Assembly (NCBI GenBank): GCA_025354525.1
Contig: JANXMS010000027.1
Coordinates: 1-36,417, forward strand
Source: Acidobacteriota bacterium
GTDB lineage: Bacteria > Acidobacteriota > Terriglobia > Bryobacterales > Bryobacteraceae
Length of the DNA: 36,417 bases
Reading direction: 5' to 3'
The notes beneath the pieces are model-generated. The model was given only the letters and a program-made list of their open reading frames with translations. It did not search any database and was not told the DNA's origin. A program made the translations under genes and the position numbers. Shown here piece after piece: positions 1,188 through 36,417 of the stretch; position 1 is the stretch's first letter, and the number at the start of each line of letters is the position of its first letter.

Positions 1188-1232
1188 CGGCGCGATTCTA
1201 TCACTCCTCGCGATAGACTTAAAGCTGAGCCA

Positions 1233-3203
1233 ATGTCCACAATTTTTGATTCCGGCGATTCTTCCCTCTTCGATGTCCGCACGAAGGTTCCTGGCCCGAA
1301 GGGCCAGTTGCCCATCACCCCTGAGATGCTGCTCACTCGCCCGTCGGGCGACTTGTTCGGCTGGACGCTGAACGCTGGCATGGGCTGGGACCCCGCCAAG
1401 CTCGGCGGGAAGGAGATTTTACTGTTGTCGACCCACGGCGGCATTCGCCGACCGGACGGCACGCCAGTGGCGCTGGGCTACCATACGGGCCATTGGGAAG
1501 TCGGGTTGATGGTGGAGGCCGCAGCCGAAGAGTTGGCCAAGCACGGCGCGGTGCCGTTTGCCGGAGCCTGCACGGACCCTTGCGATGGGCGCAGCCAAGG
1601 CACCCCGGGCATGTTCGATTCCCTGCCCTACCGGAACGACGCGGCGATGATCTTCCGACGGCTGATTCGGAGCCTGCCGACGCGGCGCGGCGTGATCGGC
1701 GTGGCGACGTGCGACAAGGGCCTCCCCGCGATGATGATGGCGCTGGCCGCCCAACACGATATGCCTTGCGTGCTCGTGCCGGGCGGCGTGTCTCTACTGG
1801 CCGAAGATGGCGAGGACGCCGGCAAAGTGCAGTCGATTGGCGCACGGTTCTCCCATGGTCAAATCACGCTCGAAGAGGCCGCCGATATGGGCTGCCGGGC
1901 GTGCGCGTCGCCAGGCGGCGGCTGCCAGTTTTTGGGCACGGCGGCAACGTCGCAGGTGGTCGGCGAAGCGTTAGGGATGACGCTGCCGCACGCGGCGCTA
2001 TCGCCATCGGGACATCCGATTTGGCTCGACATGGCACGGCGAAGCGGACGGGCGGTGTTGGAGTTGGGCAAGCTGGGTTGGACGATGGCCGACATTCTTA
2101 CGGACGCGGCGTTTGAAAACGCGATGGTGGCCCATGCGGCGTTTGGCGGGTCGACGAATCTAATTCTGCATATTCCGGCCGTGGCGCACCAGGCAAAGCT
2201 CCGGAGGCCCAACGTCGACGATTGGTCCCGCATCAACAAGCAGGTGCCGCGCTTGGTGGACGCTTTGCCGAACGGGCCGCGGAACCATCCGACGGTCCAA
2301 GTCTTCCTGGCCGGCGGGGTACCGGAGGTGATGCTGCATCTTCGGAAGATGGGGCTGCTCCAGCTCAAAACGAAGACCGTCGCGGGCTGCACTCTCGATG
2401 AGGTTTTGGACTGGTGGGAGCAGAGCGAGCGTCGGGCCGAGTTGCACAAGGTGTTGCGCGACAGGGACGGGGTGGACGCGAACAACGTAATCTTTTCGGC
2501 CGAGACGGCGCGGTCGCGCGGCATCGGCTCGACGGTCTGTTTTCCAACTGGAAACCTGTCGCCGGAAGGCAGCGTGATCAAGAGCACGTCGATTGATCCG
2601 ACGGTGGTAGATGCCGATAACGTCTACCGCAAACGCGGCCCGGCCCGCGTCTTTACGAGCGAACCCGCGGCGATTGCGGCGATCAAAGAAGGCAAGATCC
2701 AGAGTGGCGACGTGATGGTGCTGATGTCCCGCGGGCCGAGAGGATCCGGGATGGAGGAGACGTATCAGGTGACGAGCGCGCTGAAGTTTCTCCCGTTCGG
2801 CAAGCACGTCGCGCTACTGACGGATGCGCGGTTCAGCGGAGTTTCAACCGGCGCGTGTATCGGCCATGTTTCCCCGGAAGCGTTGGCGGGCGGGCCGATT
2901 GGCCGCTTGCAGGACGGCGACTTGATCGAGATCGTCATCGATCGGAATTCTCTGGAAGGCACCGTGAATCTACTCGGCGAAGATGGCACGCGGGAAGCCG
3001 GTACGTTGCTGCTCGCGGGCCGGACGCCGCACCCGGGGATCCGGCCTGATCCGCTGCTGCCGGACGACACCCGGCTTTGGGGCTTGCTTCAGGAAGTGAG
3101 CGGTGGCCCGTGGGGCGGCTGCGTCTATGACGTCGATGCTATTGCGGAGACTTTAGAGGCTGGCCTGGTGGCGCTAGGCCGGAAAGCTCATTCTCCAGCT
3201 TGA
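1233..3203 (+). CDS. yjhG: D-xylonate dehydratase, YjhG/YagF type (IlvD/Edd superfamily)
   Basis: 656 residues, essentially the length of E. coli YjhG/YagF (about 655), and alignable by eye along its whole length ([29 protein letters not shown]-like and GPIGRL segments). The family dehydrates D-xylonate to 2-keto-3-deoxy-xylonate using an iron-sulfur cluster. Likely cluster cysteines are C117 (DPCDGR), C160 (ATCDKG) and C231 (GGGCQF). The frame is open far upstream (to 324), but homology begins at the ATG at 1233, where the protein reads [13 protein letters not shown]; earlier starts would lie inside the divergent oxidoreductase gene. No strong ribosome binding site is visible. The last 65 bp overlap the end of the convergent TPR gene. 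Confidence 0.92.
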
Positions 3204-7525: not shown

Positions 7526-7527
7526 TT

Positions 7528-8034
7528 ATGATGTCTAGGATCCGAATTGCCATCATCGCTTTAGTGCCGCTGGTCTTCGCCCTCGATTGGGGAACCAAGC
7601 GGCTCATCGAAGCGCGGGTAAGCTTCTGGGACACTCACGCCGTCATTCCGGGCTTCTTCAGCATCGTCCACGCGCAAAACCGGGGGGCGGCATTCAGCTT
7701 GTTACAGGATGCCTCCGAGCAGGTCCGCGGAGTCGTTCTCATCGGGTTTTCTGGCGTGATCACCCTCGTCGTGGCCGGGATGCTCGCGATGTCGTTTCGG
7801 AATAAAGATCGGCAGTCTGATTGGGTTCGGGCGGCGTTGGCGCTGGTGCTCAGCGGCGCGCTGGGAAACATGTGGGATCGGGTGCTGCGCGGCTACGTGA
7901 CGGATTTCTTGCTCGTCTACATCGGCGAGTATAGTTGGCCGGTGTTCAACGTGGCCGACAGTGCGATCTGCATTGGGGCCGGTTTGCTGCTGCTGGATAT
8001 TTGGCGAGAAAGGGGGGAAAAGCATGCTGCCTAA
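7528..8034 (+). CDS. lspA: Lipoprotein signal peptidase (signal peptidase II)
   Basis: 168 residues, the usual size for LspA, an inner-membrane aspartyl protease that removes the signal peptide from diacylglyceryl-modified prolipoproteins. The conserved NRGAAFS segment is present, as are the two catalytic aspartate motifs, GNMWDR and FNVADS. Hydrophobic segments at about residues 5-22, 60-80, 90-110 and 135-155 fit four membrane spans. Two adjacent ATGs (7528 and 7531) are possible; the first is 2 bp after the ileS stop. Its 3' end overlaps lgt by 11 bp. Confidence 0.95.
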   Translation: MMSRIRIAIIALVPLVFALDWGTKRLIEARVSFWDTHAVIPGFFSIVHAQNRGAAFSLLQDASEQVRGVVLIGFSGVITLVVAGMLAMSFRNKDRQSDWVRAALALVLSGALGNMWDRVLRGYVTDFLLVYIGEYSWPVFNVADSAICIGAGLLLLDIWRERGEKHAA

Positions 8035-8818
8035 GCTGTTTCCAGTCGGCGATTTTTTCCTGCCGACGTATGGGGTATTGGTCGCCAGTGGCGTACTTCT
8101 GGGACTGATGGTGACGACGCGGTTGGCGCGCCTGCACAAGTTAGATCCCGAAAAAATCACAAACTTGGTGCTTTACGTCGTGTTCGCCGGAATGCTCGGC
8201 GCGAAGTTGGCTATGTTTGCTTTCGACTGGGGCTACTACGCCCAGCGACCGGAAGAGATCTTTTCCTTGGCGACACTCCAAGCGGCGGGCGTATTCCAGG
8301 GAGGGCTGGTCACAGCGATCCTTGCCGCCTGGTGGTACGTTCGACGCGAGAAGATGGCTTTTTTGCCGATCGCCGACCTGTTCGCCCCGGGGCTAGCCTT
8401 GGGGCATGCGGTAGGGCGGATCGGGTGTTTTGCGGCAGGCTGCTGCTACGGAGCGTATTGCGAGCGTCCGTGGGCCGTGCGTTATACGAATCCGGACGCC
8501 GCAAAAATCAGCGGGACACCCTTAGGGATCCCCTTACACCCGTCGCAGCTTTACGAGGCGGTGGCTGAGTTTGTTCTGTTCTGGGTACTCTATCGGATGG
8601 CCAAGCGGCCGCATGTCCCAGGAACGGTGATCGGACAGTACCTGACCGTCTATTCGACAGTGCGCTTTTTCGTCGAGTTTGTTCGACATCATGAGCAAGG
8701 GTTGCAGGCAGGGTTATCCCTGACGCAGTGGATGAGCCTGGGTTTTGCGCTGGCCGGAGCCGCGTATTTAGTGCGGGCGCACAGGGTCGCTGCCTCGGTT
8801 GCGGCACCCAAGAACTAA
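8024..8818 (+). CDS. lgt: Prolipoprotein diacylglyceryl transferase
   Basis: 264 residues. Lgt transfers diacylglycerol from phosphatidylglycerol to the lipobox cysteine, the step before LspA. Recognised features are the signature region GRIGCFAAGCCYG and the HPSQLYE motif, with about seven hydrophobic segments expected for this inner-membrane enzyme. The ATG at 8024 is preceded by an AGGGGGGA ribosome binding site lying inside the lspA gene; the frame extends further upstream, but only as an out-of-frame shadow of lspA. The overlap implies translational coupling of the two lipoprotein-maturation enzymes. A lipoprotein substrate of the pathway is encoded at 34393-35421. Confidence 0.95.
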   Translation: MLPKLFPVGDFFLPTYGVLVASGVLLGLMVTTRLARLHKLDPEKITNLVLYVVFAGMLGAKLAMFAFDWGYYAQRPEEIFSLATLQAAGVFQGGLVTAILAAWWYVRREKMAFLPIADLFAPGLALGHAVGRIGCFAAGCCYGAYCERPWAVRYTNPDAAKISGTPLGIPLHPSQLYEAVAEFVLFWVLYRMAKRPHVPGTVIGQYLTVYSTVRFFVEFVRHHEQGLQAGLSLTQWMSLGFALAGAAYLVRAHRVAASVAAPKN

Positions 8819-8828
8819 GGTGTTTTTC

Positions 8829-8860
8829 AGGCAGTTTTAGGTAGACTGCTTCATTTGTTT
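8829..8860 (+). terminator. Possible weak terminator after lgt
   Basis: AGGCAGT (8829-8835) can pair with ACTGCTT (8845-8851) through a 9-base loop, with one G-U pair, followed by a T-rich stretch. It is weak, but it separates the housekeeping operon from the TadE-like genes. Confidence 0.3.
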
Positions 8861-8912
8861 CCGGGTCTTCCTCCTCTATCGTGATGTATAGGCACAGAGT
8901 GTCTGTAGATCA

Positions 8913-9407
8913 ATGACGGAACAAATCGACAAACTGCCGCGGAGTAAGGAATCGGGCAACGCGATGCTCGAGATGGGATTGGTGTTTGTGCCCTTGTTCG
9001 CAATTCTGTTTGCGATTTCCGACTATTCGATGGCGGTGTTTATGCGGGCTACTTTGCAGCACTCGGTGCGCGAAGGGGTTCGCTACGCCGTGACGTATCA
9101 GACGATGTCGGGGCTGTGTCAGGACGCATCGATCAAGCAGGTGGTCAAGTCGGCGTCGACCGGTTTTTTGAACTCGACGCATGACAGCCTGATCTTTGTT
9201 AAGTATCACGCGCCAACCGATTTGACGTCGGTGGTTACGGGTGCCGGGAGCAACGCCGCCGGCAACATCGTCGAAGTATCGATCGAAAATTATAGCCATC
9301 GCTGGATCGCGCCACTGCTGCGGAGCAACACGCCGCTGACCATCACAGTAGCGGCAGCCGACCGCACAGAGAGCTTAGCCGGGACGGCAACGCCGCCCTG
9401 CCGTTGA
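8913..9407 (+). CDS. TadE-like pilus assembly/pseudopilin protein
   Basis: 164 residues with the TadE arrangement: a short polar N-terminus, a Gly-Asn-Ala then Glu just before a single hydrophobic segment (MLEMGLVFVPLFAILFAI, about residues 18-35), and an extracytoplasmic domain. In Tad/Flp systems such minor pilins are processed by a prepilin peptidase and help assemble or anchor Flp pili. Here no Flp major pilin, TadA ATPase, secretin or peptidase is nearby. It is the first of three similar proteins (next start 6 bp downstream) and presumably forms one transcription unit ending at 11627. Confidence 0.8.
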   Translation: MTEQIDKLPRSKESGNAMLEMGLVFVPLFAILFAISDYSMAVFMRATLQHSVREGVRYAVTYQTMSGLCQDASIKQVVKSASTGFLNSTHDSLIFVKYHAPTDLTSVVTGAGSNAAGNIVEVSIENYSHRWIAPLLRSNTPLTITVAAADRTESLAGTATPPCR

Positions 9408-9413
9408 GGACTT

Positions 9414-10052
9414 ATGCTCGATTCTAACCATCGATCTCGTAGAGCAAGACAAGGCGGAAACTCGATCATCGAGTTTTCCCTCGTGATCGTATTCTTGCTG
9501 CCCATCCTGTTTGGGGTGTTCTCGGTCGGCATGAGCCTTACCAAATCGGTTCAGGCCGCGGTGGTGGCTCGCGACTCTGGCTCCATGTTCATGCGCTATG
9601 TGGATTTTTCGACCACGCAGAATCGCGCGCTCATCGTGCGGATCGCCAGTGGATTGGGAATGACCGACAACGGAGGCAACGGGACGGTGATTCTGACGCA
9701 GATCATGCGGGCTGGTGCCGGGCAGTGCGTCCCGACATTCGCCGATACGGCGTCGTGTCCGAACTTCAATCGCCACGTGATCATCAAACGAATTGTGATC
9801 GGCAACACGACGTTGACTACCAGTGCCTTCGGCACTCCCGCCGTTGGGATCATCGGGACGGATGGCAACATTACCGCCACCAACTATCTTTCGAACTCCA
9901 CCGCGCGAGCCGACGCCTTCGATCCGGTGATGAACCCAGACCTCGGAGACGGAGAGTTCGCCTTCGTCGCCGAAGCCTACTTCATCACCCCGGAACTCGA
10001 CATGCCGGGCAATCGAGTCAACACCAGTGTCTATCAACGCAGCATTTTCTAG
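9414..10052 (+). CDS. TadE/TadF-like protein
   Basis: 212 residues. It has a basic N-terminus, then NSIIEFSLVIVFLLPILFG, with the glutamate typical of TadE-like segments directly before the hydrophobic helix (about residues 16-40). The rest is a polar extracytoplasmic domain rich in Thr, Asn and Gly, with two cysteines (GQCVP and SCPNF) that may form a disulfide. The GAGGA ribosome binding site lies at the end of the preceding gene, so translation is probably coupled. The TadG-like gene follows 16 bp downstream. Function is inferred only from the family and context. Confidence 0.75.
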   Translation: MLDSNHRSRRARQGGNSIIEFSLVIVFLLPILFGVFSVGMSLTKSVQAAVVARDSGSMFMRYVDFSTTQNRALIVRIASGLGMTDNGGNGTVILTQIMRAGAGQCVPTFADTASCPNFNRHVIIKRIVIGNTTLTTSAFGTPAVGIIGTDGNITATNYLSNSTARADAFDPVMNPDLGDGEFAFVAEAYFITPELDMPGNRVNTSVYQRSIF

Positions 10053-10068
10053 TTAGGGGGCCCGATCA

Positions 10069-11568
10069 ATGCCTAGTTCCGTTCCCGTTCGCTTCTCACG
10101 AGCAGCCCGTGAAAAGGGAATCGCGGTCATGCTTACGGCCTTTATGTTGGTCTTCACGATTCCCATCGTGGGTTTGGCAATCGACGTCGGCCTGCTCTAC
10201 GTCATTCGCGCCAAACTCAGCAGCGCCTGCGACGCGGCCGCCCTGGCGACGGCGCGAAACCTCAACCTCGGCAGCACTCTCGCAGAGCAGACCGCCAGCG
10301 CCACCGCCCGGGGCAACGCGTTCTTTAGCGCCAACTTTCCCACCGGGTTCATGGGGACATCCGATACAGCCTCGACCATTACCGTGACGCAGGCGACAAT
10401 GAACACGCTAGACGTCACCACCACGGCGTCGACAACCGCCCCCCTCTATTTTATGCGGTACATCGGCACCACCGCTACGCTGGCCAGTTCCACGGGTCGG
10501 GCCTCACGCCGCGACGTCAACCTCATTCTTGTGCTCGACCGCTCAGGCTCGATGGGCGGCCAACCGTGCGCAGATATGATCTCCTCGTCGAAGACCTTTG
10601 TGAATATGTTCGTAAATGGGCGCGACCGACTAGGTATGATTAGTTTCGGAGCAAGCGTCTACAACGCCTACGCCCCTACTACGGATTTCAAAAACACCGC
10701 AACACCTTTAACCGCCTCCATCGATCAAATCACGTGCAATGGCTGGACAAACACCTCCCACGCCTACGCAACCGCCTATCAGCAATTGGTGACGATCAAC
10801 CAGCCCTTGGCCCTAAACATGATCGTCTTCTTTACCGATGGCGTACCAACCGCGTTTACGGCCGCCTTCCCCATCAAAACGCTCGCCGACCAGCGCCTCG
10901 ATTACAGCGGCGGGCCTTGCGGCGGTGTCAACGTCTTTTGCAATGTTCCGACATCCACGTGTACGGACGATACCGGAAAGCTCTTCACAGCATCTGGCTG
11001 GGGCACTTTCGCGCCGAAATCAGGCGTCATCGCCGGGGGCAACCTGAACTCGACCGGAGCTGATACCCCGGGCTTGATTAACCCGACCGCCACTACGTTC
11101 ACAGGCGAGTCCATGATCGATTCCTCCCTGCGGCCTGGCTGCCAAATGTCGGTAGACTCAAGCCGCGCCCGCTACGACCTCGCGTACGTCCCCTGGACCG
11201 ACGCCAACGGCAACAGCACAACCGGATACCAATCCGGTCTCCTCACTTTCGGATCAGGCCACCCCTACCAGGACTTCCTCCGCCTCGACCGTCCGGAGAA
11301 CATCGCAAAGATCGGCATAAATCTGGCAGATAACGCCGCAGCCGCCGCGAGAAACAACACCAGCCTCGGCGTCGTTACTTATACGATCGGTCTCGGCAGC
11401 AACGGCGGCGTGGACGATACCCTCCTTAAAAGGATGGCCAACGACCTCTCTTCACCCATTTACGACAACACGAAGTCAAACGGCATTTATATCTACGCCC
11501 CCTCTTCGGCCGACCTCGGCAATGCCTTTGCCCGCATCGCCTCGGAAATCCTCCGACTCGCCCAGTAG
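10069..11568 (+). CDS. TadG-like protein with von Willebrand A domain
   Basis: 499 residues. The N-terminal region (about 20-45) has the Tad hydrophobic helix and the following LSSACDAAALATA stretch typical of putative Flp pilus-assembly TadE/G-like proteins. A VWA domain starts near residue 150; the metal-site motif DRSGS is intact at D157-S161, and a later FTDGVP motif fits the same fold. A long insertion rich in Thr, Asn and Cys lies between about residues 270 and 370. TadG-type proteins are thought to sit in the envelope and bind other proteins or surfaces. It is the last gene of the trio and is followed by a strong intrinsic terminator. Confidence 0.85.
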   Translation: MPSSVPVRFSRAAREKGIAVMLTAFMLVFTIPIVGLAIDVGLLYVIRAKLSSACDAAALATARNLNLGSTLAEQTASATARGNAFFSANFPTGFMGTSDTASTITVTQATMNTLDVTTTASTTAPLYFMRYIGTTATLASSTGRASRRDVNLILVLDRSGSMGGQPCADMISSSKTFVNMFVNGRDRLGMISFGASVYNAYAPTTDFKNTATPLTASIDQITCNGWTNTSHAYATAYQQLVTINQPLALNMIVFFTDGVPTAFTAAFPIKTLADQRLDYSGGPCGGVNVFCNVPTSTCTDDTGKLFTASGWGTFAPKSGVIAGGNLNSTGADTPGLINPTATTFTGESMIDSSLRPGCQMSVDSSRARYDLAYVPWTDANGNSTTGYQSGLLTFGSGHPYQDFLRLDRPENIAKIGINLADNAAAAARNNTSLGVVTYTIGLGSNGGVDDTLLKRMANDLSSPIYDNTKSNGIYIYAPSSADLGNAFARIASEILRLAQ

Positions 11569-26517: not shown

Positions 26518-26937
26518 ATGCCTTCTCCTCGCTACCACCTCGCCAAGACCGACCCGGAAACCTACAGCATTTCCGATCTTGAAAAAGAAATCAAAACCGT
26601 CTGGAACGGCGTCACCAACGCCCAAGCCGTCCAATCCATCCGGGCCATGCAGAAAGGGGACAAAGTCTTTATCTACCACAGCATGGGGGATTCCGCCATC
26701 GTCGGACTCGCCCGCGTCGACTCCCCCTCCCGACCCGACCCCGAAAATCCAAAATCCGCCGTCGTCGACCTCACCTTCCTCCGCCGCCTCGACCCGCCCA
26801 CCACCCTCCACGCCGTCAAAGCTTCCAACCTATTTCCCCTCTTCGCCCTCGTCCGCCAAAGTCGACTCTCCACCATGGCCTGCCCCGACGAGTTCGTCGA
26901 TTGGGTCCGTGCTCGCTACCCCAAAATCAAAATCTAA
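26518..26937 (+). CDS. EVE-domain protein
   Basis: 139 residues, the full length of a stand-alone EVE domain (PUA-like fold). Features are the N-terminal YHLAKTDPETYSI, the WNGVTNAQAV segment and GDKVFIYHS, with AIVGLARV following. EVE domains are thought to bind modified nucleobases in DNA or RNA; stand-alone copies are widespread and of uncertain role. The stop codon overlaps the convergent Maf stop in a shared CTAA. The region 26340-26517 upstream is a 178-bp divergent promoter region with a TACAAT-type box facing the Wza-like gene but no clear -35. No restriction or methylation gene is adjacent. Confidence 0.88.
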   Translation: MPSPRYHLAKTDPETYSISDLEKEIKTVWNGVTNAQAVQSIRAMQKGDKVFIYHSMGDSAIVGLARVDSPSRPDPENPKSAVVDLTFLRRLDPPTTLHAVKASNLFPLFALVRQSRLSTMACPDEFVDWVRARYPKIKI

Positions 26938-27485
26938 AGCAGACCCCGCCGACGCAGTTGCCCAAACACCTTCGCCACAGGCAACCCCACTACGTTCCAA
27001 TAACATCCCTCAATCCGATCAATGTACCGGCTTGCCCCGCCTTGAATCGCGTAAGCCCCCGCCTTGTCCATCGGTTCACCCGTCCGGACGTACGCCGAAA
27101 TCTCCTCCCCGCTCATCTCCACAAACCGCACCAGCGTCGTCTCGGCATCAATATATAACTGACCGCCCACCTTCAAACAAATCCCCGTAATTACCTCATG
27201 CGTCCTCCCCCCTAACAACCCCAACATCCGCTCCGCATCCGCCGCGTCCAACGGCTTTCCCAAAATCTCACCGCCTACTACGACCGTAGTATCAGCCCCC
27301 AGCACCACCTCCCCCGCCTGGCCCACCGCCACCGCCTTCTGCGTCGCCAATCGCCGCACATAGCTCTGAGCCGCCTCCCCCGCCCGCAAGCTCTCATCCA
27401 CGTCCGCCACCCGGACCACAAACGGTATTCCCGCCCGCTCTAAAATCTCCCGTCGCCGCGGCGATTGCGATGCCAGTATTAACAT
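26934..27485 (-). CDS. Maf-family nucleotide pyrophosphatase
   Basis: 183 residues, normal for Maf/YhdE. The signature LASQSPRRREIL is at residues 3-14, GADTTVV near 73-79, and GKPLDAADAERMLGLLGG and the AYAIQGGAS motif follow. Maf proteins hydrolyse dTTP, UTP or modified NTPs in the cytoplasm and are linked to septum formation and nucleotide quality control. The start is 28 bp from the divergent TonB-dependent receptor gene; the stop overlaps the EVE gene by 4 bp. Confidence 0.95.
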   Translation of the reverse strand: MLILASQSPRRREILERAGIPFVVRVADVDESLRAGEAAQSYVRRLATQKAVAVGQAGEVVLGADTTVVVGGEILGKPLDAADAERMLGLLGGRTHEVITGICLKVGGQLYIDAETTLVRFVEMSGEEISAYVRTGEPMDKAGAYAIQGGASRYIDRIEGCYWNVVGLPVAKVFGQLRRRGLL

Positions 27486-27513: not shown

Positions 27514-30500
27514 ATGCTGTTAAGGGTTACTCTCGCGCTCACTGTGGCTAATTTCGCAGCCTTTTCACAAGGCACCACCTCCCGTTTGCAAGGCACCGTC
27601 CAGGACTCCTCCGGCGCCGTCGTCGCCGCCGCCAACGTCTCGTTGACCAACGAAGGAACCAACGTAACCTTTCAAATGAAGTCGACCGAAGCCGGCACCT
27701 ACGTCTTCGAAGCCCTCCAGTCCGGCCGCTACACCCTCGCCGTCGAAGCCACCGGCTTCAAGAAATTCAGCGCCAAAAACTCCGTCGTCTCCATCGGCCA
27801 GCCCACCACCGTCAACGTCGTCCTCCAACTCGGTGCCGTCACTGAATCGGTCGAGGTCAGTGGAGCCTACCAGGCCGTCCAAACCTCCACTTCCGGCAAC
27901 ATGGGCAACCTGATCGAAGAGAAAATCATCAAGGATCTCCCCATCGTCGGCACCCGCGGCCGCAATCCGCTCGACCTTGTCCTCATCCAACCCGGCATCA
28001 CCTCCGGCGGCAACACCGGTGGTGGCATCCACGTCCACGGCGCTCGCGACCGCGCCTGGAACTACACCCTCGACGGCATCGATACCAACGAAACCTCCGC
28101 CGGCGGCTCCAACTTTTCGCCCATTCGCACCAACCCTGACTCCCTCGCCGAGTTCCGCGTCATCACCGGCAACTTCACCGCCGACTCAGGTCGCAACTCC
28201 GGCGCCCAGGTCGCCATGGTCACCAAGTCCGGCACCAACGACCTCCATGGCTCCGCCTTCTGGTTCTACCGCACCCCCCGCTTCAACGCCAACGAATGGG
28301 AAAACAATCTCGATCGTCTCGGCAAGCGCCAGTTCGTCCAACATATCTTCGGCGGCTCCCTCGGCGGACCAATCATCAAGAACCAAACGTTCTTCTTCGC
28401 TAACGGCCAGGGCCTCCGCGCTCTCGAAACCGCCCAGGTAACCCGCACCGTCTACACCCAAGCCATGCGCCAAGGCACCTATCGCTACAACCGCGCTGGT
28501 CGCAACCTCCCCGCTGGCGTCGCCGGCGGCACCGTCGACCAGTCCGGCAACCCCATCGGCAACATCGGCGCCTACAATATTTTCCAAAACGATCCCCAAC
28601 GCCTCGGAGCCGACCGCGACATCGCCGCCCTCATCGCCCAATCCCCCCTTCCCAACCGCTTCGATTTCGGCGACGGCCTCAACACGGCCGGCTACACTTT
28701 CGTAGCTCCCCAAAACGAACGCCAGAACGACATCACCTTCAAGGTCGATCACATCTTCGATCCGCAAAACGCCGTCTACATCCGCTACTCCTTCGGCCGT
28801 CAGGACACCAACTGCGACCGCGGCAACGGCGGTGCCCCGCTCTTCCCCGGCACCACCTGCCTCGTCAACACCGAACGCACCCCCCGCAACTTCGCCGCCA
28901 ACTGGCGCACCAACCCCACTTCCAACATCACCAACGAGTTCGTCATCGGCTTCAACCAATTCGAGTTCTTCTTCGACCAGCCCCTCGCCTCGCTCACCCG
29001 GCCCTCTCTCTCCGGTCCCGTCGACCTCATCTCAGACTTCTCCTTCGGCAACAACCGCCGCGTCCGTACCGCCCAGTTCGTCGACAACTTCTCCTGGGTC
29101 AAAGGCAAACACAACCTCAAATTTGGCGTCAACGTCCGCCTCCAGCGCCAAAACGACGACCGAGGTACCGTCGGCGGCGCCAACGCCAACCCCAGCGTTA
29201 ACTTCTCCACCGCCCTCAACCCCGTCGACCCCCGCACCTTCGGCCTCCCCACCGACGTCAATCAGCAGTTCGACCTCGGCACCCTCCAAGGGCATACAAA
29301 CTTCCTCCTCGGCCGCGTCGGCCAGCGCTCCCAAGGCTTCATCTCCCAGGGCGACAAGTTCGTCGCCGGGCGCTTTGACTTCGTCACCGACTACCCCGAA
29401 TACGATCTCTACGTCCAAGACAACTTCAAACTCTTCCGCAACTTCAACCTCGACCTCGGCCTCCGCCTCGAAATGAAACCGGCCCCCAGCAATCTCGATA
29501 ACCGCATCCGCCGCCCCGACCAACTCCTCGTCAACGGTGCCACCCCCCAGAACTCGGCCACCTGGGTCCCCGGTCAACTCTTTAAAGACCGCATGAACAA
29601 CTTCGGCCCCTCCATCGGCTTCGCCTGGGATCCCTTCGGCACCGGCAAAACCTCCATCCGCTCTAACTACCGCATCGCCTATGACCGCATGCCGACGTTC
29701 CTGCTCGCCTCAACGATCTTCCCGAACATGCCCGGCGAAACCTTCGGCCTCGCCGACCAGCAATACGGCATCAACGGCGGCCGTCTGGCCAACATGCCCG
29801 CCTTCACCGCCCCTACCGCCAACCCCCTCGCCCTCTCCCGGCCCGCTCCCTTCGGCGCCGCCGGCGTCACCGTCGTCGACCCCAATCTCAAAATCCCCAC
29901 CACCCACCAGTGGTCCCTCTCCCTCCAACGCGAAGTCCTCAAAAACACCGTCGTCGAAGTCAGCTACATCGGTCGCCGCGGCTACAACCTCTTCGGTGCC
30001 TATAACGCCAACCAGTCCGACATCTTCCGCAACGGCTTCCTCCAGGGCTTCAACGAAATCAACGCCGGTGGCCAGTCCGCCACCGTCAATCGTCTGCTCT
30101 CGGCTGACTCCCGCCTCCAAGCCGGAGAAACCCCGTCCACGATGATCCGTCGCCTCTTCCCCGGAGACCTCCGCACCGGCAACGTCGCCGGCCTCGCCTC
30201 CAGCTTCGCCACCCGCCTTCAGAACGGTCGCTCGGTCACGGATCTCTCCGGTGCCGGCCCCTTTGCCTTCAATAACTTCCCCCAGTTCAGCAGCGTCACC
30301 ACCATCGACTCCAACGACTTCTCCACTTACCACGCCCTCGAACTCACCTTCGAACGGCGCCTGTCTAAAGGCTTCTACCTCAACGCCAACTACACCTGGT
30401 CCAAGTCGCTCGATACCCGCAGCTTCGACCCCGTCTTCACCACGACCGCCACCACCGGCAGCTCCCAGCAGGCCTCCTCCACCCCGTTCGATATCAATAA

Positions 30501-31107
30501 TCGCCGCGGCAATTACGGCCTCTCCGATTTCAACCGCACCCATGTCTATAAAACGACTTGGTCGTACGAACTCCCCTTCGGCCGCAACGGCATCTTCTTC
30601 AAAGGAGCCAACGGCGTCGTCGACCGCATCGTCGGCGGCTGGCGTGTAGCCGGCATCATGAACGTCACCTCCGGCCGACCCTTCACCGTCTACTCCGGCT
30701 CCAACGCCGTTTCAAACGCCGTCCAAACCACCGCCAACTGCACCGGATGCACCCCCGACATGGGCAAAGCCTTCACCGACCCCAACCAGGGCCTCGTCTT
30801 CTACTTCAACGAAGCCGAACGCGCCAAATTCAAGATCGATGGAGCCATCCCCGGCCAGCAAGGCAACACCCCCCGTAACTTCTTCACGGGCGACGGCCTC
30901 TTCAACCTCGACTCGTCCTTGCAGAAAGACATCACCATCCGCGAAGGTAAGAAACTCGAAATTCGCGCCGACGCCACCAACCTAACCAATACGCCCACGT
31001 TTGGTTTCCCCACCACTACCGCAAGTGCCGCCACCTTCGGCCGCATCCGGAACTCGGTGGCCAGCTCCAGCCGGAAGATCCAACTCGGCCTGCGCTTCTC
31101 GTTCTAA
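27514..31107 (+). CDS. TonB-dependent receptor, Oar-like, with N-terminal carboxypeptidase-regulatory domain
   Basis: 1197 residues. Signal peptide ends near FAAFSQG (about 20). A CarboxypepD_reg beta-sandwich spans about residues 24-105 (GTVQDSSGAVV, YTLAVEATGFKKF). A plug domain follows (about 115-235, with ITSGGNTGGG, NYTLDGIDTNE and VAMVTKSGTNDLHG), then an outer-membrane barrel ending in aromatic QLGLRFSF, a normal BamA recognition end. This architecture is greatly expanded in Acidobacteria. Ligands are unknown; oligosaccharide uptake or protein secretion is a family-level guess. Codons end overwhelmingly in C. It is the first gene of a tight four-gene plus-strand unit; the Cas6-like gene begins 10 bp after its stop. 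Confidence 0.93.
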   Translation: MLLRVTLALTVANFAAFSQGTTSRLQGTVQDSSGAVVAAANVSLTNEGTNVTFQMKSTEAGTYVFEALQSGRYTLAVEATGFKKFSAKNSVVSIGQPTTVNVVLQLGAVTESVEVSGAYQAVQTSTSGNMGNLIEEKIIKDLPIVGTRGRNPLDLVLIQPGITSGGNTGGGIHVHGARDRAWNYTLDGIDTNETSAGGSNFSPIRTNPDSLAEFRVITGNFTADSGRNSGAQVAMVTKSGTNDLHGSAFWFYRTPRFNANEWENNLDRLGKRQFVQHIFGGSLGGPIIKNQTFFFANGQGLRALETAQVTRTVYTQAMRQGTYRYNRAGRNLPAGVAGGTVDQSGNPIGNIGAYNIFQNDPQRLGADRDIAALIAQSPLPNRFDFGDGLNTAGYTFVAPQNERQNDITFKVDHIFDPQNAVYIRYSFGRQDTNCDRGNGGAPLFPGTTCLVNTERTPRNFAANWRTNPTSNITNEFVIGFNQFEFFFDQPLASLTRPSLSGPVDLISDFSFGNNRRVRTAQFVDNFSWVKGKHNLKFGVNVRLQRQNDDRGTVGGANANPSVNFSTALNPVDPRTFGLPTDVNQQFDLGTLQGHTNFLLGRVGQRSQGFISQGDKFVAGRFDFVTDYPEYDLYVQDNFKLFRNFNLDLGLRLEMKPAPSNLDNRIRRPDQLLVNGATPQNSATWVPGQLFKDRMNNFGPSIGFAWDPFGTGKTSIRSNYRIAYDRMPTFLLASTIFPNMPGETFGLADQQYGINGGRLANMPAFTAPTANPLALSRPAPFGAAGVTVVDPNLKIPTTHQWSLSLQREVLKNTVVEVSYIGRRGYNLFGAYNANQSDIFRNGFLQGFNEINAGGQSATVNRLLSADSRLQAGETPSTMIRRLFPGDLRTGNVAGLASSFATRLQNGRSVTDLSGAGPFAFNNFPQFSSVTTIDSNDFSTYHALELTFERRLSKGFYLNANYTWSKSLDTRSFDPVFTTTATTGSSQQASSTPFDINNRRGNYGLSDFNRTHVYKTTWSYELPFGRNGIFFKGANGVVDRIVGGWRVAGIMNVTSGRPFTVYSGSNAVSNAVQTTANCTGCTPDMGKAFTDPNQGLVFYFNEAERAKFKIDGAIPGQQGNTPRNFFTGDGLFNLDSSLQKDITIREGKKLEIRADATNLTNTPTFGFPTTTASAATFGRIRNSVASSSRKIQLGLRFSF

Positions 31108-31117
31108 ACCTCCAGCC

Positions 31118-31816
31118 ATGGAACTTGAGCTCTCCGTCCTGCCCCTACCCCCGCGGACCGAGAGCTCAAACCATTTACGCGGTCAACTCGGCAATCTTCT
31201 CTACCACTGCGATAAATCCCTCTACGACGAATTCTTCTCCCCCGTCGCCGAGACCGGCCCCAGCGGTCTCCACGACCGCCCCCGTCCCTTCGTTCTTCGG
31301 CCCAACGCCATTCACGTCTTTAGTCCCCCCCTAGTCCCCCGCTTAGCCACAATTCTCCAAACCACCGTCCAAACCCTCCGCTGGCCCCTCGCCCCCCTCC
31401 CCGCCCAACGCCTCCGTATCGAGTTCCTCACCCCCACGGAACTAAAACACGCCGGCCAAATCCTCCATTCACCCCACTTCCCCGCTCTCGCCGCCCGTGC
31501 CCGCGATCGCGTCCTCAGCATCCTCGCGCTCTACCAAAACCAGCCCGCCACCCACGTCGACTTCCCCGCCCTCACCACCCTCGCCGACCAAGTCCAACTC
31601 ACCGCCAGCCATACCCATTTCGTCCCCGGCGAAACCCGCCGCTCCGCCCGCAATCAAAACACCCATTCCCTCGGTGGCTTCACCGGCTGGGCCGAGTTCT
31701 CCGGCCCCCTCGACGAGCTCCTCCCCTACCTCATCGCCGCCCAATGGACCGGCGTCGGCCGCCAAACCGTCTGGGGGAAAGGGGAACTAAAAGTAACTGT
31801 GTTACCGTTTGATTAA
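31118..31816 (+). CDS. cas6: Cas6-family CRISPR RNA endonuclease-like protein (orphan)
   Basis: 232 residues. The N-terminal part has the RAMP-type [12 protein letters not shown] and [10 protein letters not shown] segments. The middle has [16 protein letters not shown] and [10 protein letters not shown]. The C-terminal part ([18 protein letters not shown], then [15 protein letters not shown]) matches the Cas6 core and its glycine-rich loop (GVGxxTxxGxGxL). Cas6 enzymes cut pre-crRNA at repeats. The cysteine cluster many Cas6 proteins carry in the N-terminal insertion is reduced, which explains the shorter length. There is no array and no other cas gene in the window. The ATG has no ribosome binding site and follows the receptor stop by 10 bp; the stop overlaps the next ATG (TAATG), so it is translationally coupled at both ends. 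The family call is from eye alignment. Confidence 0.78.
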
Positions 31817-34380
31817 TGCGTCCTTTCGCCGCTCTTCTTGCCCTCTCTTCCCTCCTACTAGCTCAGGATCCGCCCAAACCCGAGCCCCCTAAAACCGAAG
31901 CCCCCAAACCCACCCTCCCCGGTCGCCCCACAAACGCCGAACCGGAAATCAAGCCTTACGATAAGGTCATCACCAAGGACGCAAAGTCCACCCCCGGCAT
32001 CTTCACCGTTCACCAAATCAAAGACAAGTACTACTACGAAATCCCCAACGCCGAACTCGGCAAAGACTTCCTCTGGGTCCAACAAATTGCCCGCACCACC
32101 CTCGGCGCCGGCTATGGCGGCCAAGCCCTCGGCAGCCGCGTCGTCCGCTGGGAACGCCGCGATAAAAAAATCCTCCTCCGCGACGTCAACTACGACATCG
32201 TCGCCGACCCCTCCGCCCCCATCGCCAGAGCCGTCGCCGACTCCAACGTCAGCGCCATCCTCCAAGCCATCAACATCGAAGCCGAGAATAAAGAGAAAAA
32301 CGCCGTCGTCATCGAAGTAACCCGCCTCTTCAACGCCGAAGTCCCCGAACTCAGCGCTCGTACCCGCCTGCGCGCCCGCGGCTTCGATTCCTCCCGCAGC
32401 TTCCTCGATCGCGTCTCCGCCTTCCCCACCAACATCGAAGTCGAAGCCACCCACACCTACGTCGCCCCCCCCGATGCCGGCCCCACCACCCCGTCCCCCT
32501 TCCCTTCTCCCTTTGGTGGAGGCGGCATGCGCGGCAACAGCGCCACCGTCGTCCTCCATTACTCCATGGTCAAGCTCCCCGAAAAACCCATGATGCCCCG
32601 CCTCGTCGACGAGCGCGTCGGCTTCTTCAGCGTTCGCAAAACCGACTTCTCCCTCGACGAAGCCCGCGCCCCCAAACGCGCCTACCTCACCCGCTGGCGC
32701 CTCGAGAAAAAAGATCCTTCCGCCGCCCTCTCCGATCCCATCAAACCCATCATTTACTACGTCGATCCCGCCACCCCGGCCAAACTCGTCCCTTACATCA
32801 AAGCCGGCATCGAAGAATGGAAAGTCGCCTTCGAAGCCGCTGGCTTCCGCAACGCCATCCAAGCCAAGGATGCCCCCGCCAACGACCCCACCTGGAGCGC
32901 CGAAGACGCCCGCTACTCCGTCGTCCGCTGGCTCCCTTCCGACACCGAAAACGCCATGGGCCCCCACATTCACGACCCCCGCTCCGGCGAGATCATCGAA
33001 TCCGATATCCAGATGTATCACAACGTTATGAAGCTCGCCACGGCTTGGTACTTTACCCAAGTCGGCCCCCTCGATCCCCGCGCCGCCAAACTCCCCCTCC
33101 CCGACGATACCCTCGGCAAAATCGTCCAGTTCGTCGTCGCTCACGAAGTCGGCCACACCCTCGGCTTCCCCCACAACATGAAAGCCTCTTCCATGTACCC
33201 CGCCGACAAAATTCGCGACCGCGCCTGGGTCAAGAAGATGGGGCACACCCCGTCCATCATGGACTACTCCCGCTTCAACTATGTCGCCCAGCCAGAAGAC
33301 AAAATCGACGTCGACGACCTCATTCCCCACGTCGGCCCCTACGATATCTGGGCCACCGCGTGGGGCTATAAGCCCATCCCCGGCGCCAAAACCCCGTCCG
33401 AGGAAAAACCCACCCTCGACGAATGGGCCCGCCAACAGGATCAAACCCCCTGGTTGCGCTTCATGACCGCCGGAGCCCGCGGCACCGACCCCGGCGAAGT
33501 CACCGAAGCCGTCGGCGATGCCGACCCCGTTTACTCTACCGCCCTCGGCGTCAAAAACCTTGAACGCGTCATGAAGATGCTCATCCCCGCCACCGAACAG
33601 AAAGGCGAGGATTGGAGCGACCTCGAAGAAATGTACGGCCGCGTCCTCGGCCAGTTCACCCGCGAAATGAACCACGTCGCAGGAGTCGTTGGCGGCGTCG
33701 CCTCCCAACAAAAAAACGGCGGCCAGTCCGGCGTCCTGTTTACGACCATTCCCGTCGCCCGACAGAAAAAAGCCGTCGAATTCTTGAACGCCCAAGTCTT
33801 CACGACCCCCGCCTATTTCGTCGACCCAGCCATCCTCCGCCGCATTGAACCCGACGGCATCCTCACCCGCATCCGCGCCGTCCAAGGCTCCGTCCTCGAA
33901 ACCCTCCTCTCCCCCACCCGTATCCAACGGATGACCGAGCAGGAAACGATCGACGGAGATAAAGCCTATAAACCCCTCGACCTGCTCACCGACGTCCGCC
34001 GTGGCATCTTCGCCGAACTGGCAACTCCCACCCCGAAACTCGACGCCTACCGCCGCAACATCCAGCAGGTCTACCTCGACTCGATGAACGCCCGCATCAA
34101 CGGCGGAGCCGCCCCCGCCAACCAACGCTGGCTCTACCGCGGCGAATTAAAAGCGCTTAGCGCTGACATCGCTCGCTCCCTTCCCCGGGTCGCCGATCGC
34201 CCCAGCAACATGTTCCTGTCCGACGTGAAAGAACAAATCGCCCGCATTCTCGATCCAAAATTCGCCCCGCCCGCCCCCTCCGCTCTCTCCCTGGCCAACC
34301 GTCGCGCCCTGGACTCCATCAATCTGGATTCCTGCTGGCAAGAGTTAACCATTACTAGAGACGGGATCAAGCTACAATAG
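31816..34380 (+). CDS. Secreted zinc-dependent metalloprotease, DUF5117 type
   Basis: 854 residues. Signal peptide [17 protein letters not shown], then a proline/lysine/glutamate-rich linker (about 18-42). About residues 45-330 match the DUF5118/DUF5117 region that precedes the protease domain in this family. The metzincin zinc site is complete: H443-E444-x-x-H447-x-x-G-x-x-H453, with a Met-turn (SIMDYS, M482). The C-terminal third is a helical family-specific domain. It is probably a periplasmic or secreted peptidase. Its start overlaps the Cas6-like stop by one base, and the lipoprotein isomerase begins 12 bp after its stop. Confidence 0.9.
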
Positions 34381-34392
34381 GTGCTCTTACCC

Positions 34393-35421
34393 ATGTATCG
34401 TCTGTCGCTGCTTCTCACCCTCGTAGCCGCCGCTCTGGTCTCCGCCGGCTGCAAAAAGACTCCTCCGGCTAACGTATCCGCCACGGTCAACGACCGCGCG
34501 ATTACCTTCGCCGATCTAGAAAAGCAATTCGGCATGCAGTTCCCTGCCCAACCTGGTCAAACCGAAAACGACGACCAGACCATGATCAACAAGCTCGAAG
34601 TGCTCCGTAGCATGATCGATCAGGAGATCATGATGCAGCGCGCCGAAAAGAACGGCCTCCTCGCCCAGCAGACCGACGTCGATGCCGACTTCGCCAAACT
34701 AAAAGGCGGCTTCACCGAAGAAGAGTTCAAAAAGCGCCTCGAAGAGAAGAAAATGACCGCCGAGGACTTGAAGTCCGACATCCGCAAAAAGTTGAGCATC
34801 GAAAAGCTGATCACCAAAGAGATCACCTCGAAAATCAACATCACCGACAAAGACGTCAGTGACTTCTACGCCGCCAACAAACAAAATTTCAACCTCGCCG
34901 AACCTCAAGTTCACCTCGCGCAAATCCTGACCACCCCCGTCGCCGACGCCAGTATTCGAAACCTGAAGAACGATAAAGCCCAGAACGACGACCAAGCCAA
35001 ACGCAAAATGCAGCAGATCTCCGACCGCCTCCGCGCCGGCGAAGACTTCTCCATGCTCGCCCAGAACTACTCGGAAGATCCCGGCTCCTCCGCCAACGGC
35101 GGCGATCTCGGCTTCGTCTCCGAGTCCGCTCTCGAAAAAGCCAACATCGATCTCCGTCGGCTCGTTAGCACGATGCAACCCGGCCAAATCTCCCCCGTCA
35201 TTAAGACCGGAGAAGGCTACCGCATCCTCAAGCTCCTTTCGAAGGAGCCTGCCGGTCAACGCGAGTTGAGCGACCCCCGCGTCCAACAAACCATCCGCGA
35301 GACCCTCATGAACCGCAAGGATCAACTCTTCCGGTCCGCTTTCTTAGAAGCCGTTCGCAACGAAGCCCACGTCGAAAACTACCTCGCTCGCGTCGTCGGC
35401 CAACTCGACCCCAAAAAATAG
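34393..35421 (+). CDS. SurA/PpiC-like peptidyl-prolyl isomerase lipoprotein
   Basis: 342 residues from ATG 34393 (a GTG at 34381, right after the previous stop, is possible but would lengthen the leader). The leader ends in a lipobox, VSAGC, so the protein should be modified by the Lgt and LspA encoded in this window. Residues about 30-155 resemble the SurA N-terminal chaperone domain (LRSMIDQEIMMQRAEKNGL). A parvulin PpiC domain follows (about 167-285: VHLAQIL, GEDFSMLAQNYSEDPGS, GGDLGFVSESAL, GQISPVIKTGEGYRI). It probably helps fold outer-membrane proteins, such as the receptor that heads the same operon. It is the last gene of the unit; no terminator is evident. Confidence 0.92.
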   Translation: MYRLSLLLTLVAAALVSAGCKKTPPANVSATVNDRAITFADLEKQFGMQFPAQPGQTENDDQTMINKLEVLRSMIDQEIMMQRAEKNGLLAQQTDVDADFAKLKGGFTEEEFKKRLEEKKMTAEDLKSDIRKKLSIEKLITKEITSKINITDKDVSDFYAANKQNFNLAEPQVHLAQILTTPVADASIRNLKNDKAQNDDQAKRKMQQISDRLRAGEDFSMLAQNYSEDPGSSANGGDLGFVSESALEKANIDLRRLVSTMQPGQISPVIKTGEGYRILKLLSKEPAGQRELSDPRVQQTIRETLMNRKDQLFRSAFLEAVRNEAHVENYLARVVGQLDPKK

Positions 35422-35437: not shown

Positions 35438-36000
35438 TCAAAGCGCTCTACCAGCAACAATTCCCAGGAAGTGGCGTGTGGTGTAACGACTTCGGTGCCA
35501 CCTCACCGGACAAGGAAATCCCTGATACCGCACGCCTACAAACATTCCAGGAAGGCATCGTCGTCGAGGTCCGAACAGGCTCGAACAGCCTCCGATGCCC
35601 TCACCCAATAAACCTTTTTCCTAACACTCTCCCAGGCCGAAAGAATCGTTTCCTCTGTTCGACGAAACCGCGGTCGGCGTATCACTTCCTCTATAGCAAG
35701 TCTTGACTTAACAGAGGGCAAATCGGCGACGTCTGAAGAGATCCGGAGCAATGTCGGGAGAGAGGAAGGGGGATAGAGCCTCGGCGAGATCGACGACAAG
35801 CGCATGCATTGACGGGGCCCTGAGCTGGGACAAACGCAGTTTGCAGTCCGCCCAATACGGGGCCGGTAGTTCGGGTTTCCAGAACGCCTCCATTAAGGCG
35901 GGTATCGCTCTAGCGCCAACAAGAACACTTGTGCCGGAGGCCCGAGGGGTTGGAGTAACGCCGAGACGATGATGTTCGTGTCAAAGGACGCCGAGACGCG
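35438..36000 (-). pseudogene. Decayed PIN-domain toxin gene, interrupted by an insertion
   Basis: Pieces of one PIN-family toxin are spread over several frames. The N-terminal part at about 35890-36000 reads FDTNIIVSALL then GPPAQVFLLALER and runs into a stop. After about 200 bp of unrelated sequence, including repeat copy 1, coding resumes as EEVIRRPRFRR, VRACSDLDDDAFLECL (the acidic PIN motif), and then, in another frame, FPCPVRWHRSR and RHFLGIV, ending at a TGA at 35438-35440. The order and spacing match stand-alone PIN toxins that cut RNA. At least two frameshifts and an insertion make it non-functional. It lies downstream of an antitoxin remnant and converges on the isomerase gene. Confidence 0.6.
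35692..35775. repeat. 84-bp direct repeat, copy 1
   Basis: It differs from copy 2 (36255-36338) at two of 84 positions, both within the GGGC(A/C)AATC(G/C)GCG stretch. Both copies have the same orientation. It begins TATAGCAAGTCTTGACTT, with AAGTC/GACTT as a small inverted repeat, and ends AAGGGGGATA. This copy sits inside the toxin remnant, directly before (on the minus strand) the EEVIRRPRF segment, and on the minus strand reads as 28 open codons in that frame. Confidence 0.9.
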
Positions 36001-36250
36001 GGTCGGTTGTGCAACGGCTTTGCCGCGCGGGCAGCGATCTCTGCCTCAATCTCATCCAGGGACAACTGATCGAGCCGTCCTTTTCCGCGCTTGACCATGA
36101 CTGGCGCAGCCACTCTGGAGACAAATCCCGCTCCAGCACCTGCAACGCATACTGCTCGGCGAAGATCCCCTGCGCTCTGGCCTTCACTTCCAAGGCCCGT
36201 ACCTCTCCATCGGGGAGGCAAATCGTCAGGTTCACGGCGGCGGTCCTCAA
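35996..36250 (-). pseudogene. Frameshifted antitoxin gene of the PIN toxin
   Basis: From a TTG at 36250 or GTG at 36235, the minus strand encodes NLTICLPDGEVRALEVKA and EQYALQVLERDLSPEWLRQSW, typical of small antitoxins partnered with PIN toxins. Near 36075 the frame is lost. The natural continuation, LDQLSLDEIEAEIAARAAK, is in the neighbouring frame, consistent with loss of one G. The toxin N-terminal fragment follows with little or no gap, as in operonic pairs. Repeat copy 2 begins 5 bp upstream of the TTG. Confidence 0.6.
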
Positions 36251-36254
36251 TTGT

Positions 36255-36338
36255 TATAGCAAGTCTTGACTTAACAGAGGGCCAATCCGCGACGTCTGAA
36301 GAGATCCGGAGCAATGTCGGGAGAGAGGAAGGGGGATA
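36255..36338. repeat. 84-bp direct repeat, copy 2
   Basis: Same orientation as copy 1, 82 of 84 bases identical. It lies immediately upstream of the antitoxin remnant on the minus strand, so that its TATAAC end could supply a promoter box. The flanks on both sides differ from those of copy 1, which defines the repeat length precisely. Confidence 0.9.
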
Positions 36339-36417
36339 ACACAGCAGCACCTGTTGCTGCCGCCCCAGCCGCCACACCAATCAACGTGCCCAAACACAAT
36401 TGTGTAAAACCTGAAGT
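36271..36417 (-). CDS. C-terminal end of an unknown gene, finishing inside repeat copy 2, cut by window edge
   Basis: The minus-strand frame is open from the right edge for 48 codons to a TAA inside the repeat. It reads a Gly/Ala-rich hydrophobic stretch (LGTLIGVAAGAAATGAAV), like a membrane or glycine-zipper segment. The last 22 residues (LSPFLSPDIAPDLFRRR and ending ALC) come from the repeat. The same repeat frame supplies the end of another short open frame at copy 1 (35708-35893). It may be a true gene whose end was replaced by the repeat, or chance. Confidence 0.3.
   Translation of the reverse strand, partial: TSGFTQLCLGTLIGVAAGAAATGAAVLSPFLSPDIAPDLFRRRGLALC

Follow-up and report, generated by a model that had tools for sequence, protein, structure and literature searches.

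The window analysed here, a stretch of 36,417 nucleotides from a Bryobacteraceae genome of the Acidobacteriota, is the entire contig C598 of a 7.3-Mb assembly in 633 contigs. It carries a run of genes that starts with a TonB-dependent-receptor-like outer-membrane protein (27514..31107, +; PF25183 with an E-value of 6.3e-152, together with CarboxypepD_reg and Plug). This is followed by cas6 (31118..31816, +), by a DUF5117/DUF4953 Met-zincin protease gene (31816..34380, +; PF16313 2.7e-107, PF17148 1.4e-53) and by a gene for a SurA-like peptidyl-prolyl isomerase, PPIase (34381..35421, +; PF00639 1.2e-18, PF13624). The gene of a Maf-like protein (26934..27485, -; PF02545 3.7e-60) is divergent from the receptor-cas6-protease run. 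A preliminary description of this DNA had called the neighbours of cas6 envelope genes, and the Pfam matches to a receptor-like barrel, a Met-zincin and a SurA-like PPIase make this a fair account. The stop codon of the receptor gene is separated from the cas6 start by a gap of 10 nt, and the cas6 stop codon overlaps the ATG of the Met-zincin gene (TAATG). Near the contig end, at 35536-36380, two ORFs were seen from their translations to share the stretch PPSSLPTLLRISSDVAD, so that a DNA segment appears to be repeated there.

The cas6 reading frame is intact, running from an ATG at 31118 to a TAA at 31814-31816, and encodes a protein of 232 aa. This protein matched PF10040 with an E-value of 3.6e-13 (50.5 bits against a Pfam cut-off of 25) and the PADLOC Cas6 profile with 4.9e-37 (126 bits). 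None of the NCBIfam models matched it, and a phmmer search of PDB sequences returned a weak Cas6 match alone (E 0.075). An AlphaFold (AF2) model built from an alignment of 66 sequences had a mean pLDDT of 91.3 and a pTM of 0.87. Its top Foldseek matches were Cas6 structures (6njy, 1.4e-11; 6fjw, 1.7e-11), and VIA-align placed it on 6fjw with a Z score of 17.8 and an rmsd of 2.9, with 197 of the 232 residues aligned over the model range 5-228. Two RRM-like (ferredoxin) domains are predicted in the model, as in solved Cas6 structures. The identification as Cas6 is well beyond chance, and the Cas6-like endonuclease gene that the preliminary description had proposed for 31118-31816 is thus confirmed by significant profile matches and by the fold.

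Both the PADLOC profile and the family alignments covered chiefly residues 85-230 of the window Cas6. Many relatives outside its clade align in two blocks (~12-65 and 85-230) that are separated by additional residues, and the Cys-rich stretch of many longer Cas6 proteins is absent from the window protein. Judging from these alignments, part of the N-terminal domain is evidently absent. In fold, in C-terminal motifs and in the residues invariant across the family, the protein agrees with the PADLOC PDLC01477 / PF10040 Cas6 group. Among the longer relatives, L003, L012 and L180 align to almost the entire PDLC01477 profile; the window lineage matches its C-terminal half only. It also differs from the group in lying within an envelope-gene run and on a long stem branch. 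The alignment has 31 columns that do not vary among the 58 relatives from beyond its clade, and the window Cas6 keeps 30 of them, the sole exception being F for Y at 194. The residues kept include R21, R56, R61, K110, R129, R131, R174, S176, H183 and R215, and nine of the 30 are basic and spread over both domains. The glycine-rich C-terminal loop noted earlier is present, with G214, G220 and G222 invariant in 66 aligned rows. A catalytic His in the N-terminal domain is found in most Cas6 proteins, not in all. A His stands at position 30 in the window Cas6 or at 31 (L006, L007), and no His is conserved there in the wider family; H183 is invariant among the aligned Cas6 rows. A Cas6 that lacks the canonical His is mentioned in PMC4041471.

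Eight close genomes, each counted once (the window, L101-L106 and L118), have Cas6 proteins that form one clade (support 100/100) on a stem of 1.03 changes per column. No internal stop was found in cas6 across these genomes, and the gene is under purifying selection, with a dN/dS of 0.25-0.31 between the window and the other seven; this exceeds the values of the protease and PPIase genes (0.03-0.23). Such a gene could be what is left of a lost CRISPR-Cas locus, in decay and retained for now by its operon position with possible polarity on the protease gene. The shortened N-terminal domain without the Cys-rich stretch, the long stem branch and the dN/dS above that of the neighbours would all suit decay. 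However, the ratio lies well under 1 with the frame open in all eight genomes, 30 of the 31 family-invariant residues are kept, and a confident, complete fold is predicted. Short forms are also seen outside the window clade: the 75 other solitary-looking Cas6 proteins have a median length of 290 aa, and 20 of them, on several branches, are under 260 aa, against none of the six CRISPR-linked ones (Mann-Whitney p 0.0075 for length, a value that ignores relatedness and one duplicate). We regard decay as very unlikely. A relic of a local CRISPR locus was rejected as a candidate, no array and, among 19 ORFs scanned, no other cas gene having been found in the window.

The order cas6-protease-PPIase was observed in 8/8 close genomes, and the receptor gene lies upstream of cas6 in seven of them, being missing in L103 (genome G004). 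The Maf gene stands beside the receptor run in six of the eight; in the remaining two, the receptor gene is cut off by the contig end. Conservation of the order, which had been suggested as a check, also in relatives lacking CRISPR, was borne out and extends to two genomes of the same genus with no cas1 and no family-type array among the matches listed. In more distant genomes cas6 persists among different neighbours. When the ORFs of 20 Cas6 stretches were clustered, no partner was common across genera except receptor-like proteins (6/20), and on this account a single operon common to all solitary Cas6 genes was rejected. A wider survey covered 80 of the 142 Cas6 loci found, often on short contigs, with a blastp set and a repeat finder, and a cas gene or an array was seen in four of them (L138, L164, L166 and L180). 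A receptor 54-58 % identical to that of the window was found directly upstream of Cas6 in 5/80 loci (L131, L141, L144, L156 and L158); in the Cas6 tree these five solitary genes are spread over at least two branches.

In the window no repeats of at least 23 nt recurring within 120 nt were found, and 19 of its larger, non-overlapping ORFs (10 + 9) gave no PADLOC match at 1e-4, in agreement with the earlier statement that it holds neither an array nor another cas gene. The rest of the source genome is richer. Contig C168 carries an array and a type I set, namely cas6 (323 aa), cas3, cas8, cas7, cas5, cas1, cas2 and cas4; cas1, cas3, cas4 and cas6 were identified by profile, and cas8, cas7, cas5 and cas2 were named from size and order. 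An RT-Cas1 fusion (RVT_1 + Cas1) is encoded at 781-2841 (-) on the 3.6-kb contig C213 (L035), where the gene stands between two arrays that differ in repeat. Arrays were located on contigs C65, C102, C168, C213 and C633, and a detached Cas10-Csm2-Csm3-Csm4-Csm5 operon in L055 (G000:C593:3000-20000) at 6185-10993 (+). RAMPs on C214 and C633 showed no match to the detached Csm set and were left out of the Csm counts. The view of cas6 as an orphan without CRISPR context therefore holds for the window and fails for the genome, which has a type I locus, an RT-Cas1, arrays and a Csm operon, none of them beside the window cas6. An array elsewhere, named before as one possible source of substrate, is indeed available on five contigs.

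PADLOC matches of the source-genome operon were 4e-20 for Cas10, 1.2e-13 for Csm2, 1.8e-55 for Csm3, 1.2e-26 for Csm4 and 2.8e-16 for Csm5. We fetched 27 loci with a strong RAMP match (20 + 7), and in 27/27 this RAMP was the csm3 of a Cas10-Csm2-Csm3-Csm4-Csm5 operon with blastp hits to all five proteins; in L067 the contig ends inside csm5. Neither Cas6 and none of the type I cas proteins had a blastp match in these loci, which contained no array, only uninterrupted tandem repeats. Nineteen of the 27 genomes were without Cas1 among the matches listed, and 17 of those 19 have Cas6. Identity to the source-genome copy was 60-91 % for Csm3 and 64-95 % for Csm2, and mostly 32-45 % outside the genus for Cas10, Csm4 and Csm5. 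In a phylum-level search with Csm3 (E <= 1e-20), 11 of 297 genomes were hit among the matches listed, three of them Bryobacteraceae (two, besides the source genome's own, at 75 %) and eight others at 39-48 % identity; from this distribution the conserved Csm form looks like a family trait. Downstream of the operon a shared gene, encoding an ATPase read as putatively ExeA-like, was present in 8/20 loci, which suggests that in several genera the operon was inherited vertically at one location.

The operon agrees with subtype III-A (Csm) in its ordered Cas10, Csm2, Csm3, Csm4 and Csm5 genes and in keeping the Csm3 Asp motif (GG[AS]DNP), present in 27/27 loci, which we take to be the putative catalytic one. 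It differs from that subtype in that no cas1, cas6 or array was found beside it, in a compact Cas10 with no visible HD domain and a variably lost GGDD motif, and in that a RAMP of the Csm3 kind occurs in nearly every Bryobacteraceae genome among the matches listed. An HD nuclease domain is common in Cas10, though not universal. In the source-genome Cas10 none was apparent from the profile match or the sequence, the best Cas10 profile match covering residues 381-553 of 605, the palm part; in 3/27 Cas10 ORFs the sequence has an HD dipeptide within the first 250 residues. The GGDD motif was intact in 15 of the 27 loci, GGDE in five, GGND in one, GSDD in one and destroyed in five (G009, G041, G097, G055 and G070). 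Across three genomes of the window's genus dN/dS was 0.03-0.04 for Csm3 and 0.05-0.08 for Cas10, as low as for PPIase (0.03-0.08), some of the dS values being near 1.5 or higher and so close to saturation. As far as the sequences tell, the RNA-cutting backbone is the most constrained part of the Csm effector.

Tandem repeats of 45-63 bp were seen a short way beyond csm5 in 7/27 Csm loci, overlapping small ORFs (L055 12382-12506, L056 4278-4469, L057 4377-4561, L058 3827-4150, L074 11450-11810, L096 2513-2960 and L098 8155-8440). Several of them read as proline-rich peptides, for example PPPDPWGD, and they could encode a linked small protein. Repeated words beside the operon in L058, L064, L074, L096 and L098 were considered as arrays and rejected, as they are tandem, have no variable spacers and overlap ORFs.

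The family was sampled with 101 Bryobacteraceae genomes that are 62-100 % complete. A Cas6 match was present in 90 of them, Cas1 in 55 and a PF03787 RAMP in 93, the last two counted among the matches listed. The sole Cas6 match of G044, G051, G056 and G099 is distant (29-34 % identity); RAMP matches were mostly about 280 aa with E near 1e-20, a few being weak (G084 2.4e-5, G006 2.4e-8). Eighty-six genomes have both Cas6 and RAMP and four have neither (Fisher p 0.0045); Cas6 alone occurs in four and RAMP alone in seven. Thirty-five of the 46 Cas1-negative genomes keep both, including two of the window's genus, G004 and G078. These two have one Cas6 match and one RAMP match each, and among the matches listed they showed no Cas1, no Cas3 over the cut-off and no family-type (GTYTCART) array; Cas6 and Csm are thus all the cas machinery found in them.

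Array patterns were limited to repeats starting GTTTC or GTYTCART. Arrays with a GTYTCART start occurred in 27/101 genomes among the matches listed, with zero control hits: in 26 of the 55 Cas1-positive genomes and in one of the 46 Cas1-negative ones (G072, which is without RAMP). The comparison of these 26/55 with 0/35 Cas1-negative genomes having Cas6 and RAMP, among the matches listed, gave a Fisher p of 1.4e-7 with relatedness ignored. Eleven of the 35 are 95-100 % complete, and the first 80 bases of each of their 117 GTTTC-triplet rows were inspected; none was array-like, those of G078 being tandem repeats of about 66-72 bp and that of G094 a low-complexity stretch. When the repeat pattern was relaxed, 13 Cas1-negative genomes had between one and three hits apiece among the matches listed (G013, G014, G018, G021, G032, G034, G040, G041, G043, G046, G062, G068 and G094), the repeat unit of G068 sitting at a contig end.

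A likely substrate was indicated by relatives in which a member of the window's Cas6 group stands next to an array. In L180 (Ca. Angelobacter) it occurs with Cas10, Csm4, Csm3 and Csm2 by PADLOC and an array whose repeat ends CCCCGATGAGAAGGGGATTGAAAC; no csm5 was recognised, and a SAVED-TIR protein lies next to csm4. Beside the type III-A genes, the region 2167-4839 of L180 encodes this SAVED-TIR protein, which matched PADLOC at 6.7e-52, together with a protein of 488 aa that has an mCpol (minimal CRISPR polymerase) domain (PF18182, 9.1e-25). In L166 the Cas6 accompanies a III-D-like set (Cas10, Cas5_IIId and two Csm3-like RAMPs) and two arrays, so the window's Cas6 group is not tied to III-A. 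The repeats of L180 and L166 end CCCCGATGAG(A/G)AGGGGATTGA(A/G)AC, and the source genome's repeats belong to that class too when the opposite strand is read. Lying beside a Cas6 of the same group, the L180 array repeat gives the likely Cas6 substrate.

We scanned 179 stretches (2.09 Mb) for ATTGA(A/G)AC directly preceded by a perfect stem of at least 4 pairs; the counts for three control handles were 0, 1 and 0. Once loci holding three or more copies were set aside, 8 hits in 7 loci were left. Two are array repeats of the source genome's type I locus (L005) and one is an array end of the source genome (L088); the hits in L078 and L087 are one place fetched twice, inside a 1443-aa ORF, and those in L131 and L162 both overlap long ORFs. 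The last, in L173, consists of two repeat copies ~73 nt apart around 200-300, one of them degenerate, on a contig with a solitary Cas6, and is to all appearance a one-spacer array remnant. A conserved guide RNA beside Cas6 or Csm was sought by the repeat search and the hairpin scan and rejected, there being no ncRNA among the 8 hits. In the window itself the scan returned nothing, and when mismatches were allowed, scattered partial matches alone were seen; L037 has one exact GGGGATTGAAAC without such a stem.

These scans bear on the idea, raised in the preliminary description, that Cas6 was recruited to cut hairpins in the mRNA of its own operon. As an exapted local regulator, it would act on the receptor-cas6-protease transcript or on other mRNAs independently of Csm, and the tight coupling of the genes (10-nt gap and TAATG overlap), the order kept in 8 close genomes, the related receptors upstream of Cas6 at 5 further loci and the long stem branch of the window clade would be in keeping with this. 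Against it stand the empty stem scan of the window, the partial matches of the mismatch scan with the stemless GGGGATTGAAAC of L037, the retention of Cas6 across genera despite differing neighbours and its retention in G004 without the receptor. Cutting of its own operon's mRNA thus found no support, and we think a role as local regulator very unlikely.

The same data can be read as an ordinary type III arrangement, in which this Cas6 matures crRNAs for arrays elsewhere, acting in trans as Cas6 does for most type III systems, and the array-less relatives are products of losses in MAGs or of repeats missed by the patterns. Arrays of the matching class in the source genome speak for it, as do the array right beside the Cas6 of G007, those in the same stretch in L166 and L180, the two-repeat remnant on the Cas6 contig L173, the repeat unit at a contig end in the cas1-negative G068 and the one to three loose-pattern hits in 12 further cas1-negative genomes among the matches listed. 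The stricter pattern evidently misses many arrays, since 29/55 Cas1-positive genomes show none among the matches listed. On the other hand, the type I locus of the source genome has its own full-length Cas6, the cas1-negative genomes with Cas6 and RAMP gave 0/35 arrays against 26/55 in the cas1-positive ones among the matches listed, and the 117 GTTTC-triplet rows of 11 of these genomes, 95-100 % complete, held nothing array-like in their first 80 bases. Lost arrays alone would also not explain so widespread an effector operon. We consider this a possible, if rather unlikely, account.

Type III systems without adaptation genes are already known. The window Cas6 is not truly an orphan; most likely it acts in trans with a Csm complex that is encoded elsewhere and has no adaptation genes. 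The detached Csm operon persists in the genome alongside cas6, and on balance it is probable that Cas6 works in trans to make guides for a widespread, adaptation-less Csm complex that cuts RNA. In favour of this are the fold, the 30 invariant residues kept and the purifying selection on cas6, the Csm operon at 27/27 loci, the joint occurrence of Cas6 and RAMP, the low dN/dS of Csm3 and Cas10 and the L180 locus with its array. Cas6 would cut RNAs that carry a CCCC-loop-GGGG hairpin followed by AUUGA(A/G)AC; from what is generally known of Cas6, cleavage would fall at the hairpin base and leave AUUGA(A/G)AC as an 8-nt 5' tag. The product would be loaded into the detached Csm complex, whose Csm3 backbone would cut complementary RNA. 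In the source genome, transcripts of arrays on other contigs could serve as precursors. For relatives without cas1 or a detectable array, a precedent for a non-CRISPR precursor may be found in ncRNA60. According to PMC4041471, this RNA does not come from a CRISPR, is cleaved in vitro by a Cas6 of Sulfolobus and is abundant in the Sulfolobus CSM complex. The likeness to S. solfataricus Cas6-3, ncRNA60 and CSM is limited, in that the system of that source is archaeal with arrays present, and no RNA homologous to the ncRNA60 described there was identified in this analysis.

More tentatively, the Bryobacteraceae may possess an ancestral, core RNA-guided ribonuclease independent of CRISPR arrays, in which Cas6 would make guides from chromosomal non-CRISPR RNAs for an HD-less and increasingly cyclase-less Cas10-Csm, with Csm3 cutting cellular or mobile-element RNAs; we hold this to be doubtful at present. 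An effector operon and a trans Cas6 are kept across most of the family under strong constraint, in many genomes without a detectable array, and such conservation suggests either a function outside adaptive immunity or a source of guides yet to be discovered. PMC6452270 discusses reduced CRISPR variants that were exapted for purposes other than defence; by title and abstract opening, no paper on a family-wide solitary Cas6 with Csm was found among the matches listed. The Bryobacteraceae pair offers a testable case for the guide source in array-less strains.

In a Cas6 tree of 84 rows, the deep forks of which are weak, the six CRISPR-linked Cas6 rows (L138 and L032 being identical) fell into two clades together with solitary-looking ones (support 86/83 and 86/94, neither starred), and the gene therefore seems to have moved between contexts. 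Most members of the window's Cas6 group have no recognised cas gene nearby. The long stem of the window clade together with its reduced N-terminal domain suggests that specificity may have shifted. Distances of Cas10 and Csm3 correlate (rho 0.63, 0/2000 permutations as high). For Cas6 and Csm3, rho was 0.35 over 14 genomes (22/2000) and 0.28 with one genome per genus (189/2000), and co-inheritance of Cas6 and Csm by distance was rejected, the correlation being weak once one genome per genus was kept. The weak correlation, the mixed clades, the long stem with the reduced N-terminal domain, the genomes having Cas6 or a RAMP alone and the III-D-like set of L166 count against the pairing of Cas6 with Csm. 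A Bryobacterales-type Cas6 was also encountered in L113, a MAG named 'Bordetella parapertussis'; it groups with L110, and the bin is probably mislabelled.
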